From Bacteroidota bacterium (lineage in GTDB: Bacteria > Bacteroidota > Bacteroidia > Bacteroidales > Lentimicrobiaceae), in assembly GCA_009773515.1 (NCBI GenBank), contig WSXX01000007.1:62001-126000 (forward strand): 64,000 bases of DNA. Direction: 5' to 3'. The position numbers were made by a program, and so were the translations under genes. Each line of letters opens with the position of its first letter. Position 1 is the stretch's first letter. This document shows, one piece after another, positions 1,227 through 62,506 of this stretch. The notes beneath the pieces were generated by a model. It was not told the DNA's origin, did no database searches, and saw only the letters and a program-made list of their open reading frames with translations.

Positions 1227-1445
1227 GATTTCGGATTTCGGATTTCGGAGGTCGCTTGTCTCGGGAGCGCGAAGCGATAACGAGAGAGGTCGGAGGTCAG
1301 AGGTCGCTTGTCTCGGGAGCGCAAAGCGATAACGAGAGATGTCGGAGGTCAGATTTACCTTCGGTGAGCTCCGCTTCGCTTCGGTTCGGATTTCGGATGG
1401 AGGATTTTGGATTTACCTTCGGTGAGCTCCGCTTCGCTTCGTATT
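1227..1445. repeat. Tandem repeats after the rlmI stop codon
   Basis: Directly after the stop there are about three copies of GATTTCG. Two copies of a 52-bp unit follow, starting at about 1255 and 1307, each with TCTCG and CGAGA arms that can pair. Two copies of a 31-bp unit (GCTCCGCTTCGCTTCG type) start at about 1353 and 1411 with a 58-bp period. An ORF runs through this region but is only the continuation of a wrong frame. The arrays look non-coding. Confidence 0.8.
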
Positions 1446-1509
1446 TGTTTGATTTGATTGATTTACCTCCTAATGAATTGATTAATCATTTATAAATTTA
1501 AATTTTTTC

Positions 1510-1517
1510 TATATTTG
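1510..1517 (+). promoter_or_regulatory. -7 box upstream of the endonuclease gene
   Basis: TATATTTG matches TAnnTTTG exactly. No good -33 TTG lies at the usual spacing. The box is 113 bases before the ATG at 1631, so the leader would be long and would contain both palindromes at 1553 and 1576. Confidence 0.4.
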
Positions 1518-1552
1518 AGGCGAAAATCTGAGCTATTGAGGAAGACAGATTT

Positions 1553-1587
1553 CTTGTTAACAAGTCAGATATATACGCAATATTGCG
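1553..1587. promoter_or_regulatory. Two perfect 12-bp palindromes before the endonuclease gene
   Basis: CTTGTTAACAAG (1553-1564) and CGCAATATTGCG (1576-1587) are both perfect 12-bp palindromes, with centres 23 bases apart. They lie between the -7 box at 1510 and the start at 1631. They could be operators for a dimeric repressor or part of a recombination site. No regulator gene is adjacent. Confidence 0.45.
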
Positions 1588-1630
1588 AATATCCACTCGC
1601 TATTACACATTTTAAAAGAGAGATAATAAC

Positions 1631-2275
1631 ATGGCAGAAAAGAGAAACCCTATTAAGATAGAGTTAATTAACAAAGATGAATACAAATTGACAATTAAAC
1701 TTGACAATTGGGAACTTTCAAGAAATGTTTCAGAAACTGCACTTAAAGAATTACAAGAAGAAATTAATAATGCTACTGGTCTGACAAAGATTTCGGAAAC
1801 TTTTAATTGCACAGGAGAAGAATCAAGGAAAATTAAAGATTTTTGGGATTCTCGAAGTAATTGGCAATTATGTAAAGCATGTAAATTCAAATGGAAAGAA
1901 TGCTATAATTGTATAATTAAGTGTGAAAGTCCATTGGAAAGAGATTTATTGCTTGAATTGCGTAAAAATAACATTGAACCAATCTTACAGCGAAGGTTTA
2001 ACAAAGATGGTAGTTTTTATGAATTCCCTAAAAGCATAGATTTTGATAACATACTTACAATACCTGATTTCTATATCGAAGGAGGTAAAACGAAATTATG
2101 TGTTTATGCTGACGGACACACATATCACGAGAGAACCGAAAACCAAGCATTAAGAGACAGAAACATTGACAGAGAATTACAAAGAATTGGTTTCAAAGTT
2201 TTGAGATACACAGGTCATGAAATTCGCAAGAATTGTTCCCTTGTGGTTGAGAATATCAAAATGAACATAGAATAA
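1631..2275 (+). CDS. DUF559/Vsr-like endonuclease-fold protein
   Basis: The 214-residue protein ends in a nuclease-like domain of the PD-(D/E)XK/Vsr/DUF559 type. It shows ESPLERDLLLEL (helix with the first acidic residue), PDFYIEGG, then LCVYADGHTYH (acidic core strand) and RDRNIDRELQRIGFKVLRYT near the end, the usual order in DUF559 and very-short-patch-repair folds. The first ~85 residues are unrecognised. A cysteine cluster CKACKFKWKECYNC (about residues 79-92) suggests a zinc-binding knuckle. The gene is AT-rich and its stop lies 5 bases before the first copy of the cassette repeat, so it may be the first cargo of the array, although its 5' boundary lacks the expected complementary core. 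Cutting of DNA is inferred from the fold; a defence or repair role is possible. Confidence 0.6.
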   Translation: MAEKRNPIKIELINKDEYKLTIKLDNWELSRNVSETALKELQEEINNATGLTKISETFNCTGEESRKIKDFWDSRSNWQLCKACKFKWKECYNCIIKCESPLERDLLLELRKNNIEPILQRRFNKDGSFYEFPKSIDFDNILTIPDFYIEGGKTKLCVYADGHTYHERTENQALRDRNIDRELQRIGFKVLRYTGHEIRKNCSLVVENIKMNIE

Positions 2276-2280
2276 AAACG

Positions 2281-2572
2281 TGTTATAATAAATAGGACTC
2301 TGAGCGGTCTGCAAGACCCAGCGATGAGTCCATGTTGAACTACATCCCTGGGGGTGACTATGTACTTAAAGACGTTTTTTAATTGGATTGAAGCGAAAAA
2401 ACAGACTTTGTTTTTTGATGTTATGCAGCATTATGTGCTTTTTCAAAGATCAACAAAAGCTTTACGCAAGCAGGCGCATTGTGGTGTCCGGAATATTTGT
2501 AATTTTAACGGGCATTCTGCAAGCCGCGGAGATAGGTAATTTTAAATGCCTGCCAGCGCAAAGCTTCGGCCG
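2281..2572 (+). repeat. Cassette-associated repeat, copy 1
   Basis: It begins AATAAATAGGACTC and ends in the AAGCTTCGG block before GTTG. At its 5' end GGACTC pairs with GAGTCC and, inside that, GGTCT with AGACC, giving a nested hairpin (2295-2331). A 60-codon open frame runs through it. This is the shortest full copy because it lacks the TTTCGACAAGCTCAATG module. Confidence 0.85.
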
Positions 2573-2607
2573 TTGTAGGCAACCTAAGTCAGAAATAAAA
2601 ATGTAAA

Positions 2608-3207
2608 ATGAGATTACAAATAATAGTATTAATTTTATTCACTTCAATATTTTCTTGGGGACAAGGAATTACTGAAGAAGTTAAAGTTATCAATGACCTA
2701 TTGCCACATATTTTGGTAAGAGAATGGCCTGGAAACCAAAATCCAGACAGTTTACGACCGAAATGTAATAATGACATTTACAATGTTATAATTCAAGACA
2801 GTACAAAGAAAGATTGTGATTTTCTATTTATAAATGATACTCTAATTTCATTGAAAAAAGTTCTAAGAAGTAAGAAATGGTTGGTATCTGGAGAAAGATA
2901 CACTCCCATGTATTTGAAAATTAAAAGAGAAGCAAAAATCAGCAAGCTTAAAACTAAGGTAATTGATACAGATAGCTTGTTTAATATATGGGTTTACAAT
3001 AAACTTGATTCTTTACCAACTGATGAATGGGCTGCATATACAAAGGTGCAGTTTTCAAGAGTTTGTTTTAATAAGGAAAAAACTATGTGCTTCTTTTACG
3101 TTGAAGTGCTTAACTCAGGAAATACAGGATATGTAACTTTAATTTTAGCTGAAAAATTTCAAGATTGTCCTACTTGGAATTTAATAAATGGCTCATATTA
3201 TAAATAA
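2608..3207 (+). CDS. Secreted protein of unknown function (cassette 1 cargo)
   Basis: I do not recognise this 199-residue protein. It begins with a signal peptide (about residues 1-19, ending FSWGQG) and the rest is soluble and rich in Lys and Asp with five cysteines, so it is probably periplasmic or exported. It sits inside a cassette-like unit: the left core is 35 bases before its ATG and the right core begins 8 bases after its stop. The upstream -7 box and ribosome site are not obvious, as is usual for cassette cargo that relies on read-through. Codon use is AT-rich compared with rlmI and der, which suggests recent acquisition. The coding call is good; the function is unknown. Confidence 0.75.
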   Translation: MRLQIIVLILFTSIFSWGQGITEEVKVINDLLPHILVREWPGNQNPDSLRPKCNNDIYNVIIQDSTKKDCDFLFINDTLISLKKVLRSKKWLVSGERYTPMYLKIKREAKISKLKTKVIDTDSLFNIWVYNKLDSLPTDEWAAYTKVQFSRVCFNKEKTMCFFYVEVLNSGNTGYVTLILAEKFQDCPTWNLINGSYYK

Positions 3208-3214
3208 AAAAGGC

Positions 3215-3553
3215 TGCCTACAATAAATAGGACCTGAGCGGTCTGCAAGACCCAGCGATGAGTCCATGTTGAACTACATTTCGACAAGCTCAATGCGGCG
3301 CATTTCGACAGGCTCAATTCAGCGCATCCAATGGGTGCCTATGTATTTAAAGACGTTTTTTAATTTGATTGAAGTGAAAAAACAAACTTTGTTTTTTGAT
3401 GTAATGCAGCATTATGCGATTTTTCAAGGATCAATAAAAGCTTTACACAAGCAGGCACATTCTGGTAACCGGAAAATTTGTAATTTTAACCAGGATTCTG
3501 CAAGCCGCGAAGATAGATAATTTTAAATGCCTGCCAGCGCAAAGCTTCGGGAG
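3215..3553 (+). repeat. Cassette-associated repeat, copy 2
   Basis: This copy shares the hairpin start and the 3' block of copy 1. It carries two extra tandem modules of the TTTCGACAAGCTCAATG type between them. A frame matching that of copy 1 stays open (about 3343-3520), but most differences between the two frames change the amino acid. The arm TGCCTACAA at 3215-3223 pairs with the left end of its own cassette at 2573. Confidence 0.85.
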
Positions 3554-3573
3554 TTGGCATTAATGTTAAGAAA

Positions 3574-4236
3574 ATGACCGAACTTAAACCTAGATTAAAG
3601 AATATTATAATTTTTTCAGCAAGTCTTTTGATTTCAGCTGGATTGCTAATTTTTCTTTTAGAAGGCCTTTATAATTTAAAAAACACTGAATCAATTGTTC
3701 CGATTGGGATTCTATTTTTATTCTGCTTACCTCCTTTAATTTTATCAATTACATATTTTTATGTTGATTTAACTAAAAAAGTCTTAATTGATGTGTCACA
3801 GAATAGGATTATTATTCATAAAAGAGGGAAAGAAATTATTATTAAACAAGAGGATATTTTGGATTCATTCTATGTGAGAGTAGAAGATAAGTGGAGATAT
3901 AAAGGATATTACTTTCCAATGTACAAATACATAGTTCTAATTCTTAAAGAAAGAAGACGTGTTTATATAACAAATCTATTATGTGAACCAGAATTGATTA
4001 TTAATGCAATGAATTTAAATCATAAATTGATTTATACAAATATTCCTTTTATTAACAGAAGTCTCGGAAGTGGGGTTCTAACTACAAAAGAATTTGAATC
4101 AAAGGTTCTCGAATTCGAAAATATTTTTCAGGAACATTCAAACTCTATATTAGAAGATATTATTAGTCAAAGAACTGTTTACGCAGACTATGCAAGAGAA
4201 GCTGCAATAAGAATTTTGAATAAAAGAAAACACTAA
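3574..4236 (+). CDS. Membrane protein of unknown function (cassette 2 cargo)
   Basis: The 220-residue protein has two N-terminal membrane segments (about residues 10-32 and 42-64), followed by a soluble part. The stretch with TKKVLIDVSQNRIIIHKRGKEIII looks like the beta-rich start of a bacterial PH-like (YdbT/DUF304-style) domain, but this is only a resemblance. The ATG is 20 bases after the left core of its cassette, and the TAA stop is itself the first three bases of the right core arm (4234-4242), so the ORF fills the unit completely. AT-rich codon use resembles the neighbouring cassettes. Function is unknown. Confidence 0.72.
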   Translation: MTELKPRLKNIIIFSASLLISAGLLIFLLEGLYNLKNTESIVPIGILFLFCLPPLILSITYFYVDLTKKVLIDVSQNRIIIHKRGKEIIIKQEDILDSFYVRVEDKWRYKGYYFPMYKYIVLILKERRRVYITNLLCEPELIINAMNLNHKLIYTNIPFINRSLGSGVLTTKEFESKVLEFENIFQEHSNSILEDIISQRTVYADYAREAAIRILNKRKH

Positions 4237-4557
4237 TGCCAATAAATAGGACTCTGAGCGGTCTGCAAGACCCAGCGATGAGTTCCCGAAGCTTCGGGAT
4301 TGAACTACATTTCGACAAGCTCAATGCGGCGCATCCCTGGGGGTGACTATGTACTTAAAGACGTTGTTTATAGGATTGAGTGAAAAAAAAGACAGTATTT
4401 TTTGATGTAATGCAGCATTATGCGCTTTTTCAAGGATCAAGAAAAGCTTTACTAGCAGGCACATTGTGGTAACCGGAAAATTTGTAATTTTAACGGGCAT
4501 TCTGCAAGCCGCGAAGAATGGTGATTTTAAATGCCTGCAAGCGCAAAGCTTCGGGCG
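4234..4557 (+). repeat. Cassette-associated repeat, copy 3
   Basis: It has the same ends as copies 1 and 2. After GATGAGTT it carries a 14-bp palindrome, CCCGAAGCTTCGGG, that copies 1 and 2 lack, and one TTTCGACAAGCTCAATG module. The frame that is open in copies 1 and 2 is broken here by a frameshift and a TGA. Confidence 0.85.
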
Positions 4558-4580
4558 TTGGGCCCAATAATACAAAGACA

Positions 4581-5420
4581 ATGAAAATAAAATTATTAAC
4601 ATTTTTTCTAAGTATTTCAATTTTATCTAATGCTCAAACATTTTTAGATTCAGTTAGAGCAGGAACTATAACAATGGATAAATATGCTCAAGAATTTAAT
4701 AAATTAGATGATTTTAATGATATTATTATTCCATTTAAAGAAAATGATAAGTGGGGTTATAAAGACAATAATACCAATATTATAATTGAGCCAAAATATG
4801 ATTATGCTTCAAAGTTTCAAAATGATTTAGCAATAGTGAAACAAAATGATAAAAACGGATTAATTAATAAGTATGATAAGATTATTATTCCTTTTGGCAA
4901 GTATGATGCAATATATTCATTTAAAGATAAAAGGGCAAGAGTTAAAGTAAATAATTTATTTGGTATAATTGATGATAAGGGGAATGAAATCTTACCTTGT
5001 GTCTATAAATCTACCGACAATTATAGGTTTGGTCTTTGCCAATTAACTGATAAAAATAACAATCAAGGATTAGTTGATTTAAATGGTAATATAATTATTC
5101 CATTTGTCTATGAAAAACTAATACAGATGCAATTATCAGGAGTTATAAAAGCAAAAAAAGACGGAAAATATGGATACATCAATTATAAAAATGATATCCT
5201 AATCAAATTTAAATATGATTATATAGACCAGCCTTCAAATGGTATGATTGCGGTTAAAAATGGGGACAAGTATGGATTTATAAACACAATAGGGGAAGAG
5301 ATTATTCCGTGCATTTATGATAAAGTATATCCCTTTACCGAAAATGGAAATGCGTCAGTTATCAAGAATGGAAAAGCTGGATATGTATTAGAAAATGGAA
5401 ATGAAATAATTATTGAATAA
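4581..5420 (+). CDS. WG-repeat (WG_beta_rep) secreted protein (cassette 3 cargo)
   Basis: I start the protein at the ATG at 4581 because an upstream in-frame ATG lies inside the repeat. This gives 279 residues with a signal peptide (about residues 1-18, ending LSNAQ). The rest consists of about seven WG-type beta repeats of roughly 30-35 residues, with KWGYKDNN, LFGIIDDKGNEILP, KYGYINYKND and KYGFINTIGEEIIP as clear examples. WG-repeat proteins in Bacteroidota are common extracytoplasmic beta-rich proteins of uncertain role. The left cassette core is 23 bases upstream and the right core begins 6 bases after the stop. The family call is firm; the function is not known. Confidence 0.85.
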   Translation: MKIKLLTFFLSISILSNAQTFLDSVRAGTITMDKYAQEFNKLDDFNDIIIPFKENDKWGYKDNNTNIIIEPKYDYASKFQNDLAIVKQNDKNGLINKYDKIIIPFGKYDAIYSFKDKRARVKVNNLFGIIDDKGNEILPCVYKSTDNYRFGLCQLTDKNNNQGLVDLNGNIIIPFVYEKLIQMQLSGVIKAKKDGKYGYINYKNDILIKFKYDYIDQPSNGMIAVKNGDKYGFINTIGEEIIPCIYDKVYPFTENGNASVIKNGKAGYVLENGNEIIIE

Positions 5421-5425
5421 ATTAC

Positions 5426-5527
5426 TGGGCACAATAAATAGGACTCTGAGCGGTCTGCAAGACCCAGCGATGAGTTCCTGAAGCTTCGGGATTGAACTAC
5501 ATTTCGACAAGCTCAATGCAGCGCATC
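5426..5527 (+). repeat. Cassette-associated repeat, copy 4 (truncated)
   Basis: The hairpin start, the GAAGCTTCGGG palindrome (one base different from copy 3) and the TTTCGACAAGCTCAATG module are present. Similarity stops at GCGCATC (about 5527), so the 3' half, including the GTTG core, is missing. This marks the right edge of the array. Confidence 0.85.
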
Positions 5528-61166: not shown

Positions 61167-62506
61167 AGTTCATGCCTAAATCCATAAAGTTTTTGTTTTG
61201 TCTTGTTTTTGTTTCATGCATAACACCATACGTGAAAGCAGAAAAATTGAAAGCTGAAAACTACGAAAGCCTTACTTTCAGGCTTTACAGTGAGCAGAAA
61301 TGGGATAGCCTTTTGCTGATTGGCGAAAGAGCAATTGCTGAGGGCTATGACTATTTTTATATCAGAGCCAGGGTTGGAATAGCGGCTTTTGAACTGCAAA
61401 AGTTCATCCGGGCTTCAAACCACTTCGAAGCAGCACTTGAGTTTAACAATAATGATGAATTTATTTCCGGTGCACTTTACCATGCTTATTTATACAGTGG
61501 GCGGGTGGATGAGGCACGGATTTTTCTGAGCACATTGCCGGCCTCTCTCGCTCAAACAATAAACAGCAGATCCGGCAAACCATTGATATACATGGAAACC
61601 GGCCCCGCAATCTCTGATCATGTGAAGCAGTTCGAAATATCGAGGCAAACCGGAAACGGACTCTATTCAGAAGCTTACCTGAACAAAAATTCTTATTATT
61701 TCCTGGCAGGAGCAGTAATTCCGGTTGGTTACAAATTTTCGGTAAATGCAGCTTTTTCTGCAATGAATTTTAACAAAGAACGAAGGGTTGATATTACATT
61801 TTTTGACTCACTTAGAGGGGATTATTCTGTTTCACAAGTCGAAGCTTACCTCTCTCCATCATTCCTCACGGGAAAAGGAAAATTCAGAATAAGCCCTGCT
61901 TTCAGACTGGCCAATGTTAGAATGGATAATCCCTTGAACAGCGATGATTCAATTGTTCAAAAAATGATCGGCTCACCGGGAACGACATCCTATAATGATA
62001 TTGGCTTTGGCGGAGAAATCAGTTATCTGGCACCATTTTGGGTAGCTACCGCTGGCTTATGGTCGCTCCAGATTGATAATAATGAATATACTCAGGCTAC
62101 TGCCTCTTTGTTTGTCAGGCCACTTGGAAACCTCAACCTTTACACATATTCAGCAGTTACGTTAAAAAAAACGCAAGGCTCTAAACAATTCATTGTCAGC
62201 CAGCTTGTTGGCGGAAAATTATTTGGAAATTTATGGGGCGAAACTTTTTTAACAATAGGTGACTTTTCCGGTACCGGCGAAAACAACCTGCAGGTGTTTT
62301 ACAACTCCTTCGATAAGCTGAAAAGCAGATATGGCGCCCGTTTGATCCTCAATGTTAACGATTACCTGAAATTCAGTATAAGAGGTCAGGTATTTGTCAG
62401 GGAGGGTACAGAACTATTTTTTACCGAAACCGGCAAATCCGGAATTTATTCTTACAATTACCAAACACTTAGTATCACAGGAGGAATATCATGGAATCTT
62501 CAATAA
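61163..62506 (+). CDS. TPR plus outer-membrane beta-barrel protein (YaiO-like architecture)
   Basis: The 447-residue protein has a signal peptide (about residues 1-26). A helical TPR-like part (about 30-130) follows, with YIRARVGIAAFELQKFIRASNHFEAALEFNN. A C-terminal region (about 160-447) of alternating aromatic amphipathic strands ends SITGGISWNLQ, as in outer-membrane barrels. It overlaps the preceding gene by 4 bases and the next by 16, so the three are translationally coupled. YaiO-like outer-membrane proteins share this architecture. Function is unknown. Confidence 0.78.
   Translation: MKFMPKSIKFLFCLVFVSCITPYVKAEKLKAENYESLTFRLYSEQKWDSLLLIGERAIAEGYDYFYIRARVGIAAFELQKFIRASNHFEAALEFNNNDEFISGALYHAYLYSGRVDEARIFLSTLPASLAQTINSRSGKPLIYMETGPAISDHVKQFEISRQTGNGLYSEAYLNKNSYYFLAGAVIPVGYKFSVNAAFSAMNFNKERRVDITFFDSLRGDYSVSQVEAYLSPSFLTGKGKFRISPAFRLANVRMDNPLNSDDSIVQKMIGSPGTTSYNDIGFGGEISYLAPFWVATAGLWSLQIDNNEYTQATASLFVRPLGNLNLYTYSAVTLKKTQGSKQFIVSQLVGGKLFGNLWGETFLTIGDFSGTGENNLQVFYNSFDKLKSRYGARLILNVNDYLKFSIRGQVFVREGTELFFTETGKSGIYSYNYQTLSITGGISWNLQ

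Follow-up and report, generated by a model that had tools for sequence, protein, structure and literature searches.

The 64,000-nucleotide stretch of DNA analysed here, referred to as the window (positions 62,001 to 126,000 of the forward strand of contig WSXX01000007.1, assembly GCA_009773515.1, a Bacteroidota bacterium of the family Lentimicrobiaceae), appears, with a probability that we put at about 0.87, to carry an integron-type array of gene cassettes on an acceptor site that lacks an integrase, an array on which a tyrosine recombinase present in relatives, here called HY, would act. An earlier reading of the letters alone (the original prediction) had described three consecutive units with integron-like logic. 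All three were confirmed, and the array proved to comprise four cassettes (1600-5527), one more lying upstream. The cassettes are all on one strand, as had been claimed, and their strand and order fit an integron-type array. The leader and the cassettes are the following (a caret marks the putative cut).

1490 to 1599, + strand: attI-like leader, with the box TATATTTG at 1510-1517 and the near-palindrome GATATATACGCAATATTGCGAATATC at 1568-1593, ending CTCG^ at 1599
1600 to 2572, + strand: cassette 0, starting CTATTACACATTTT; open reading frame (ORF) 1631-2275, DUF559-like; R'' end at 2288; site to 2572
2573 to 3553, + strand: cassette 1, length 981; ORF 2608-3207; R'' end at 3223; site to 3553
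3554 to 4557, + strand: cassette 2, length 1004; ORF 3574-4236; R'' end at 4242; site to 4557
4558 to 5527, + strand: cassette 3; ORF 4581-5420, WG repeats; R'' end at 5434

The cassette-specific 9-mers lie where the original prediction had placed them, TTGTAGGCA at 2573/3215, TTGGCATTA at 3554/4234 and TTGGGCCCA at 4558/5426 (one mismatch in the last pair), and the spacing of the ORFs is also as described, with 35, 20 and 23 bases on the 5' side and 7 bases, an overlap of 3 and 5 bases on the 3' side; the start of the cassette 3 ORF was taken as the ATG at 4581, the ORF list holding a longer frame from 4518. The pairing of a cassette with its own end extends beyond these 9 bases to about 14. 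Over 14 positions, cassettes 0 to 3 matched their own ends at 11, 12, 13 and 12 positions and each other's ends at only 4-7, the window ends having been placed in this comparison via the repeat and not via complementarity. Cassette 0, whose end closing at 2288 reads TTATAACACGTTTT as its reverse complement, has A/G at position 10 and two mismatches within the 9-mer.

When other copies in the genome were inspected, as had been suggested, the complementarity was found to be kept and not lost. In a table of 17 cassettes on ten contigs, nine of them besides that of the window, the total of own-end matches was 189, whereas none of 100,000 re-pairings exceeded 152, and 16 of the 17 rows had the own end as their best match; this total leans upwards because some of the non-window ends were located by complementarity or by eye, and three rows (C7a, C31 and C39b) are not in register. 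Of the 17 cassettes, 14 have A opposite C at position 10, a combination that can pair, as G.T, on the bottom strand alone. Chance or base composition could be invoked to explain such ends, given that the AT-rich cassette ORFs (G+C 0.26-0.31 versus 0.42 in the whole window) make short matches common, but both this permutation test and that on the 56 first cassettes beside HY described below reduce the probability of this explanation to a negligible one.

The 3' sites of the window cassettes are composite, each repeat consisting of a left module (AATAAATAGGACTCTGAGCGGTCTGCAAGACC) and a right attC-like hairpin of about 120 bases.

2449 to 2572, + strand: attC-like hairpin module of site 1; bottom-strand arm pairing, energy -21.3
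3430 to 3553, + strand: attC-like hairpin module of site 2; bottom-strand arm pairing, energy -19.2
4435 to 4557, + strand: attC-like hairpin module of site 3; bottom-strand arm pairing, energy -17.4
2286 to 2334, 3223 to 3268, 4241 to 4288 and 5433 to 5480, + strand: left module, a small hairpin between R'' and the attC hairpin

All three arm energies are beyond the 1st percentile of control stretches (-11.1), and the right modules contain the R''/R' boxes and the paired L arms of attC, as do the arrays beside HY. The earlier remark that the ends hardly pair outside the core applies to the left module but not to the right 120 bases or so. On contig C7 both modules adjoin in shorter sites of roughly 155-170 bases, and the site of cassette 3 is truncated to the left module, the similarity of the repeat stopping at 5527. 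The left module was also found at cassette ends in other genomes of the genus, and other cassettes of the window genome carry different 3' sites.

Parts of the window repeat were detected on 13 contigs, which might suggest a miniature inverted-repeat (MITE-like) or IS91-type transposon, the 290-340 bp repeat being a non-autonomous element that hops between genes. An IS91-type element (transposase plus accessory tyrosine recombinase) indeed lies inside the loop of one composite repeat on contig C54 (positions 1322-3395 of locus L012), and another IS91 pair is located about 1 kb after HY on a plasmid (L252). Nevertheless, a transposon gives no reason why the downstream flank of each copy should be complementary, differently for each gene, to the upstream flank of the copy that follows, and arrays without the window repeat show the same ends, so that we consider this explanation very unlikely.

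Upstream of cassette 0, as of many other arrays, the leader follows a common plan, namely a TAnnTTTG box, 45-50 bases, and then a sequence like ACAAGTCAGATATATACGCAATATTGCGTATATCCACTCG^TTR. The box, which was spotted by eye, is a candidate promoter, TAnnTTTG being what we take to be a promoter consensus. In the fetched stretches there are 33 leader copies at E <= 1e-6, 21 in the window genome and 12 in six genomes of the same genus, and when up to 3.85 kb were crudely scanned, 6 of 32 leaders had a perfect 9-base end (some of which may be false), versus 2.1% of 1054 swapped tests. In two genomes of the genus (G005 and G016) the sequence 3' of the integrase stop codon belongs to the leader family of the window (E 6.7e-14 and 7.2e-12; the leader model was built from 12 leaders, including that of the window itself and one from another place in G005). 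Because the same family adjoins the integrase in these two genomes, the window leader is, as judged by homology, an attI site of the HY system.

A nearby IntI, which the original prediction had suggested looking for, was not encountered, since none of the 19 genomes of the genus has a protein over the TIGR02249 cut-off, and in relatives its position is occupied by another tyrosine recombinase. This recombinase, HY, was first met as sub-threshold TIGR02249 hits in genomes of the genus, directly 5' of cassettes. A model built from three HY proteins gave a match reaching the N-terminal extension in 9 of the 19 genomes, and the best 80 loci were kept when named genomes were scanned with these three. 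The match starts at query residue 28 or earlier in 70 of these loci; 77 are titled as Bacteroidota groups, and the rest as Ignavibacteria, Azoarcus and an unnamed bacterium. HY-bearing genera include Flavobacterium, Algoriphagus and Cyclobacterium. The hits in metagenome-assembled genomes titled Ignavibacteria and Azoarcus (L139 and L150) may reflect either transfer between phyla or mis-binning.

After the HY stop codon most loci show a TAnnTTTG box followed by the attI-like motif TATANACNAG^TTR. This motif lies directly 3' of HY in 75 of the 80 loci (the misses being L140, at a contig end, L187, L188, L195 and L205), compared with 442 of 3747 stretches taken at random from these loci (11.8%) at the same threshold, although the first count is not an independent test because motif and threshold were drawn from the same loci after reading them. 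No downstream site over threshold was found at 24 loci (21 distinct) of Xer or IS91-type recombinases, where the best score was 5.4 versus a threshold of 5.5. Among the first cassettes beside HY, 19 of 56 have a perfect 9-mer end, whereas 20,000 re-pairings averaged 1.07 and never gave more than 6. An 8-mer anchor defines 43 of 75 first cassettes, and in these positions 11-13, which are outside the selection, match at 86-88% versus 30-38% for swapped partners, with 47% at position 9, 72% at position 14 and background values from position 15 on; in 34 of the 43, A faces C at position 10, a combination that pairs on the bottom strand only. From 77 loci a strict parser recovered 35 first and 33 later cassettes that are complete (68 in all), the later ones being like the first ones at positions 9-14. 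The attC sites of these arrays have a median spacing of 118 bp, and in 29 of 36 the arm pairing is stronger than the 1st percentile of the controls, which were scanned alike.

Natural variants of related loci are consistent with recombination at G^TT. In 187 pairs of homologous loci, which are not mutually independent, the homology that spans integrase and attI ends 2-3 bases past the cut in 84 pairs and 2-5 bases past it in 105. The alignment of two Chryseobacterium plasmids (L251 and L252) covers about 7.7 kb, with identities of 86.4% (4536 columns) and 89.7% (the 3211 columns that run through the integrase). On both plasmids it stops 2 bases beyond the cut, at ^TTG on one and ^TTA on the other, and the sequences differ from there on. 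At a locus shared by two genomes of the same genus as the window (G001 and G004), the flank and leader are 97.9% identical over 5.6 kb and the cassettes differ, one array holding cassettes A and Z and the other a truncated A, further cassettes and Z; the similarity of Z, the last cassette, runs from the G of G^TT, with 34 identical bases followed by 98.1% identity over 1403, plus one extra identical base leftward. Likewise, the metagenome-assembled genomes titled Chitinophaga pinensis and Lishizhenia tianjinensis (L149 and L180) have a 1.3 kb cassette in common (79%, from about GTTATGGG to CCCATAACAGC) and differ in the attC after it. The integron-like logic seen by the original prediction is supported by ends specific to each cassette, by hairpin sites on the bottom strand, by an acceptor that has a promoter-like box, and by natural variants whose break points fall at G^TTR.

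HY combines an N-terminal extension with a core-binding and a catalytic domain, the latter lacking the insert of IntI; the core-binding and catalytic domains were recognised by Pfam in 50 of 50 HY proteins. Four HY proteins score 190-215 on TIGR02249 (cut-off 265) and the nearest solved chain is IntI4 (2a3v, E 9.1e-41), aligned in two pieces around the insert, and both kinds of match skip the insert region. The distance from KGxKxR to LRHxxAT was 60-61 residues in all 76 HY sequences with both motifs (79 were scanned, three of them without a motif), versus 68 in Xer and 102 in L247, the sole IntI measured. In a tree of the catalytic domain, which has no rows for L227 and L250, Xer and IntI are set apart with strong support. 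In PMC8138268, which deals with an integron-like subgroup of simple tyrosine recombinases, the insert is deemed essential for integron function, and HY would be a counter-case. Because HY is without it, the window array, which would work like an integron, is not an IntI integron by the defining feature of that enzyme. As for the N-terminal extension, its identification as HARP (4 of 50 proteins, best E 0.0034) or DUF5710 (11 of 50, best E 0.021) was set aside as weak; the extension of L049 matches DUF5710 at E 9.1e-05, under the family cut-off.

The comparison with IntI integrons (class 1-3, Vibrio and other chromosomal ones) shows common features, i.e., same-strand cassettes, R''/R' boxes of the YAAC/G^TTR type, bottom-strand hairpin attC sites, an attI beside the integrase as in HY loci, and cassette ends that pair past the R box. 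This last feature alone is not new, since pairing to 9-11 nt is known in classical cassettes (PMC2727003). In contrast, HY has the N-terminal extension in addition to lacking the insert, lies 5' of attI in cassette orientation, and goes with pairing to about 14 bases and a fixed G.T at position 10, and the platform in the window is without integrase and has far larger sites. IS91-family accessory tyrosine recombinases, one of which occurs in the window genome, resemble HY in lacking the insert but are accompanied by an IS91 transposase, as in the C54 element, and have no N-terminal extension. No IS91 transposase was found beside HY in L045, L049 and L053. The tyrosine recombinase of C54 was itself considered as the integrase and rejected, because it belongs to the IS91-type element inserted in the repeat.

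According to the mechanism that we propose, a cassette is a gene in which the initial 14 bases or so would pair, in the bottom strand, with those immediately preceding the 3' site of that same gene, thereby closing a long attC-like hairpin. HY would act on a circular cassette whose bottom strand is folded and recombine this strand with the attI-like site at G^TTR, the inserted cassette would then sit behind the promoter-like box of attI, which would be active in expression, and the same-strand array could in this way lose, gain and reorder members. In the window genome, mobilisation would have to take place in trans.

Several observations weigh against this reading, in addition to the circularity of the attI count. 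The HY gene was not found in the window assembly (97.2% complete, 67 contigs); it may be missing from the assembly or have been lost from the genome, and the former could apply because the arrays on C3, C10, C46 and C54 reach contig ends. The sites of the window have oddities that the original prediction had in part pointed out, with lengths of 290-340 bp, as against 57-142 nt for classical attC (PMC2727003), and R'' ends of CAAT/TAAT rather than YAAC. IS91-type recombinases are likewise without the insert and show the same motif spacing (60-61), they are nearest to HY in the tree, where HY stands on one side of a branch supported at just 76/89, and that of C54 has the attI score of 5.4, barely below threshold. 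Of the 56 first cassettes beside HY, 30 have an end with one mismatch, a level reached by 21% of swapped pairs, and 7 have two mismatches. Finally, 42 of 77 HY loci, including one of the two plasmids, gave no complete cassette by the strict parser, partly because contigs end.

The absence of an integrase also raised the question of whether the window is an ordinary CALIN, i.e., a cluster of attC sites without integron-integrase (PMC9024848), in which the cassettes were laid down by a now-lost canonical IntI integron and HY is unrelated. The arrays of the window genome do resemble CALINs in this respect, the ends and hairpins follow the classical attC plan, including the pairing past the R box noted above, and IntI proteins over the cut-off exist in at least 4 of 295 genomes of the order. 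These canonical proteins, in G024, G203, G218 and G285 (L247-L250), are rare. We nevertheless regard a CALIN as improbable, in view of the lack of IntI in the genus, of the adjacency of HY to attI-like sites, many of them followed by complementary cassettes, and of the homology of the window leader with attI sites that adjoin HY; unlike CALINs, moreover, the arrays stand behind attI-like leaders.

A further alternative, compatible with the integron-type reading, is that HY or a relative built the array and that it is now an immobile fossil in this genome, its CAAT ends and long sites being signs of decay. The missing integrase, the truncated last site and the IS91-type element inside one C54 repeat would fit such a history, but the complementary ends are intact in most of the 17 cassettes and the integrase could lie beyond the contig ends mentioned above. 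We hold a fossil to be a tentative possibility.

In the prevalence searches 5-7 candidates were scored per genome, so that the counts are lower bounds for HY as well as for IntI. Within the order, 116 of 295 genomes gave a match at E <= 1e-60, IS91-type recombinases being among the matches, and at least 84 have a recombinase reaching the N-terminal extension, compared with at least 4 that have IntI over the cut-off. In the phylum, 107 of 395 genomes match at E <= 1e-85 and at least 64 have a recombinase reaching the extension. Recombinases of about 280-300 residues without the N-terminal extension (matches from profile positions 80-100 or so) are also frequent in the phylum. No HY match was found in phage records at E <= 1e-50.

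These figures raise the broader idea of an abundant second class of Bacteroidota integrons, with an insert-less recombinase in which an N-terminal fork- or hairpin-binding domain substitutes for the insert, and of a distributed platform in the window species, where at least 20 integrase-less attI sites with promoters would share one cassette pool that includes defence genes; for and against are, in our opinion, about evenly balanced. No description of a non-IntI integrase for Bacteroidota cassettes was found by title and abstract start, in a search that left most subscription papers and all bioRxiv preprints outside, and HY arrays may represent an apparently overlooked class of gene-capturing platforms in Bacteroidota. 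If they do function as integrons, many cassette platforms of this phylum would escape screens for IntI, and the standing question of whether the IntI insert is really needed to recombine folded single-stranded attC becomes testable.

The cargo of the window array comprises the DUF559-like nuclease (Pfam, E 1.9e-08) of cassette 0, the WG-repeat protein (Pfam, E 1.2e-48) of cassette 3, and the products of cassettes 1 and 2, for which a Pfam search gave no match. Elsewhere in the window genome, six hand-picked proteins include TIR proteins, an EcoRV-like endonuclease with a D12 methyltransferase, a DndB-like protein and an esterase. In the TIR/EcoRV-like restriction-modification array of contig C60 (L020), a short piece of the flanking chromosome (TGGAGCCTCTTTC..TGATTTTT) recurs next to every unit, near positions 371, 1486 and 3858. 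Another type of cassette 3' module, like AATCGAGTAGACGGCTCCGCCAGTA..TTAGCTGA, is common to several contigs and genomes (L010, L016, L020, L116 and L123). An end module, TCGAGTAGACGG, was suspected to be a group II intron remnant, which was not shown because Rfam gave no such match, either in the first 12 kb of the window (at E <= 1, just a tRNA and one sub-threshold match) or in 12 array loci (nothing at gathering score). With regard to the two Chryseobacterium plasmids, the region of one contains a group II intron reverse transcriptase and that of the other the IS91 pair and a methyltransferase gene set. Just 5' of the leader, positions 1238-1441 of the window contain two families of imperfect direct repeats (TCGGAGGTCGCTTGTCTCGGGAGCG.. 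and GATTTACCTTCGGTGAGCTCCGCTTCG).

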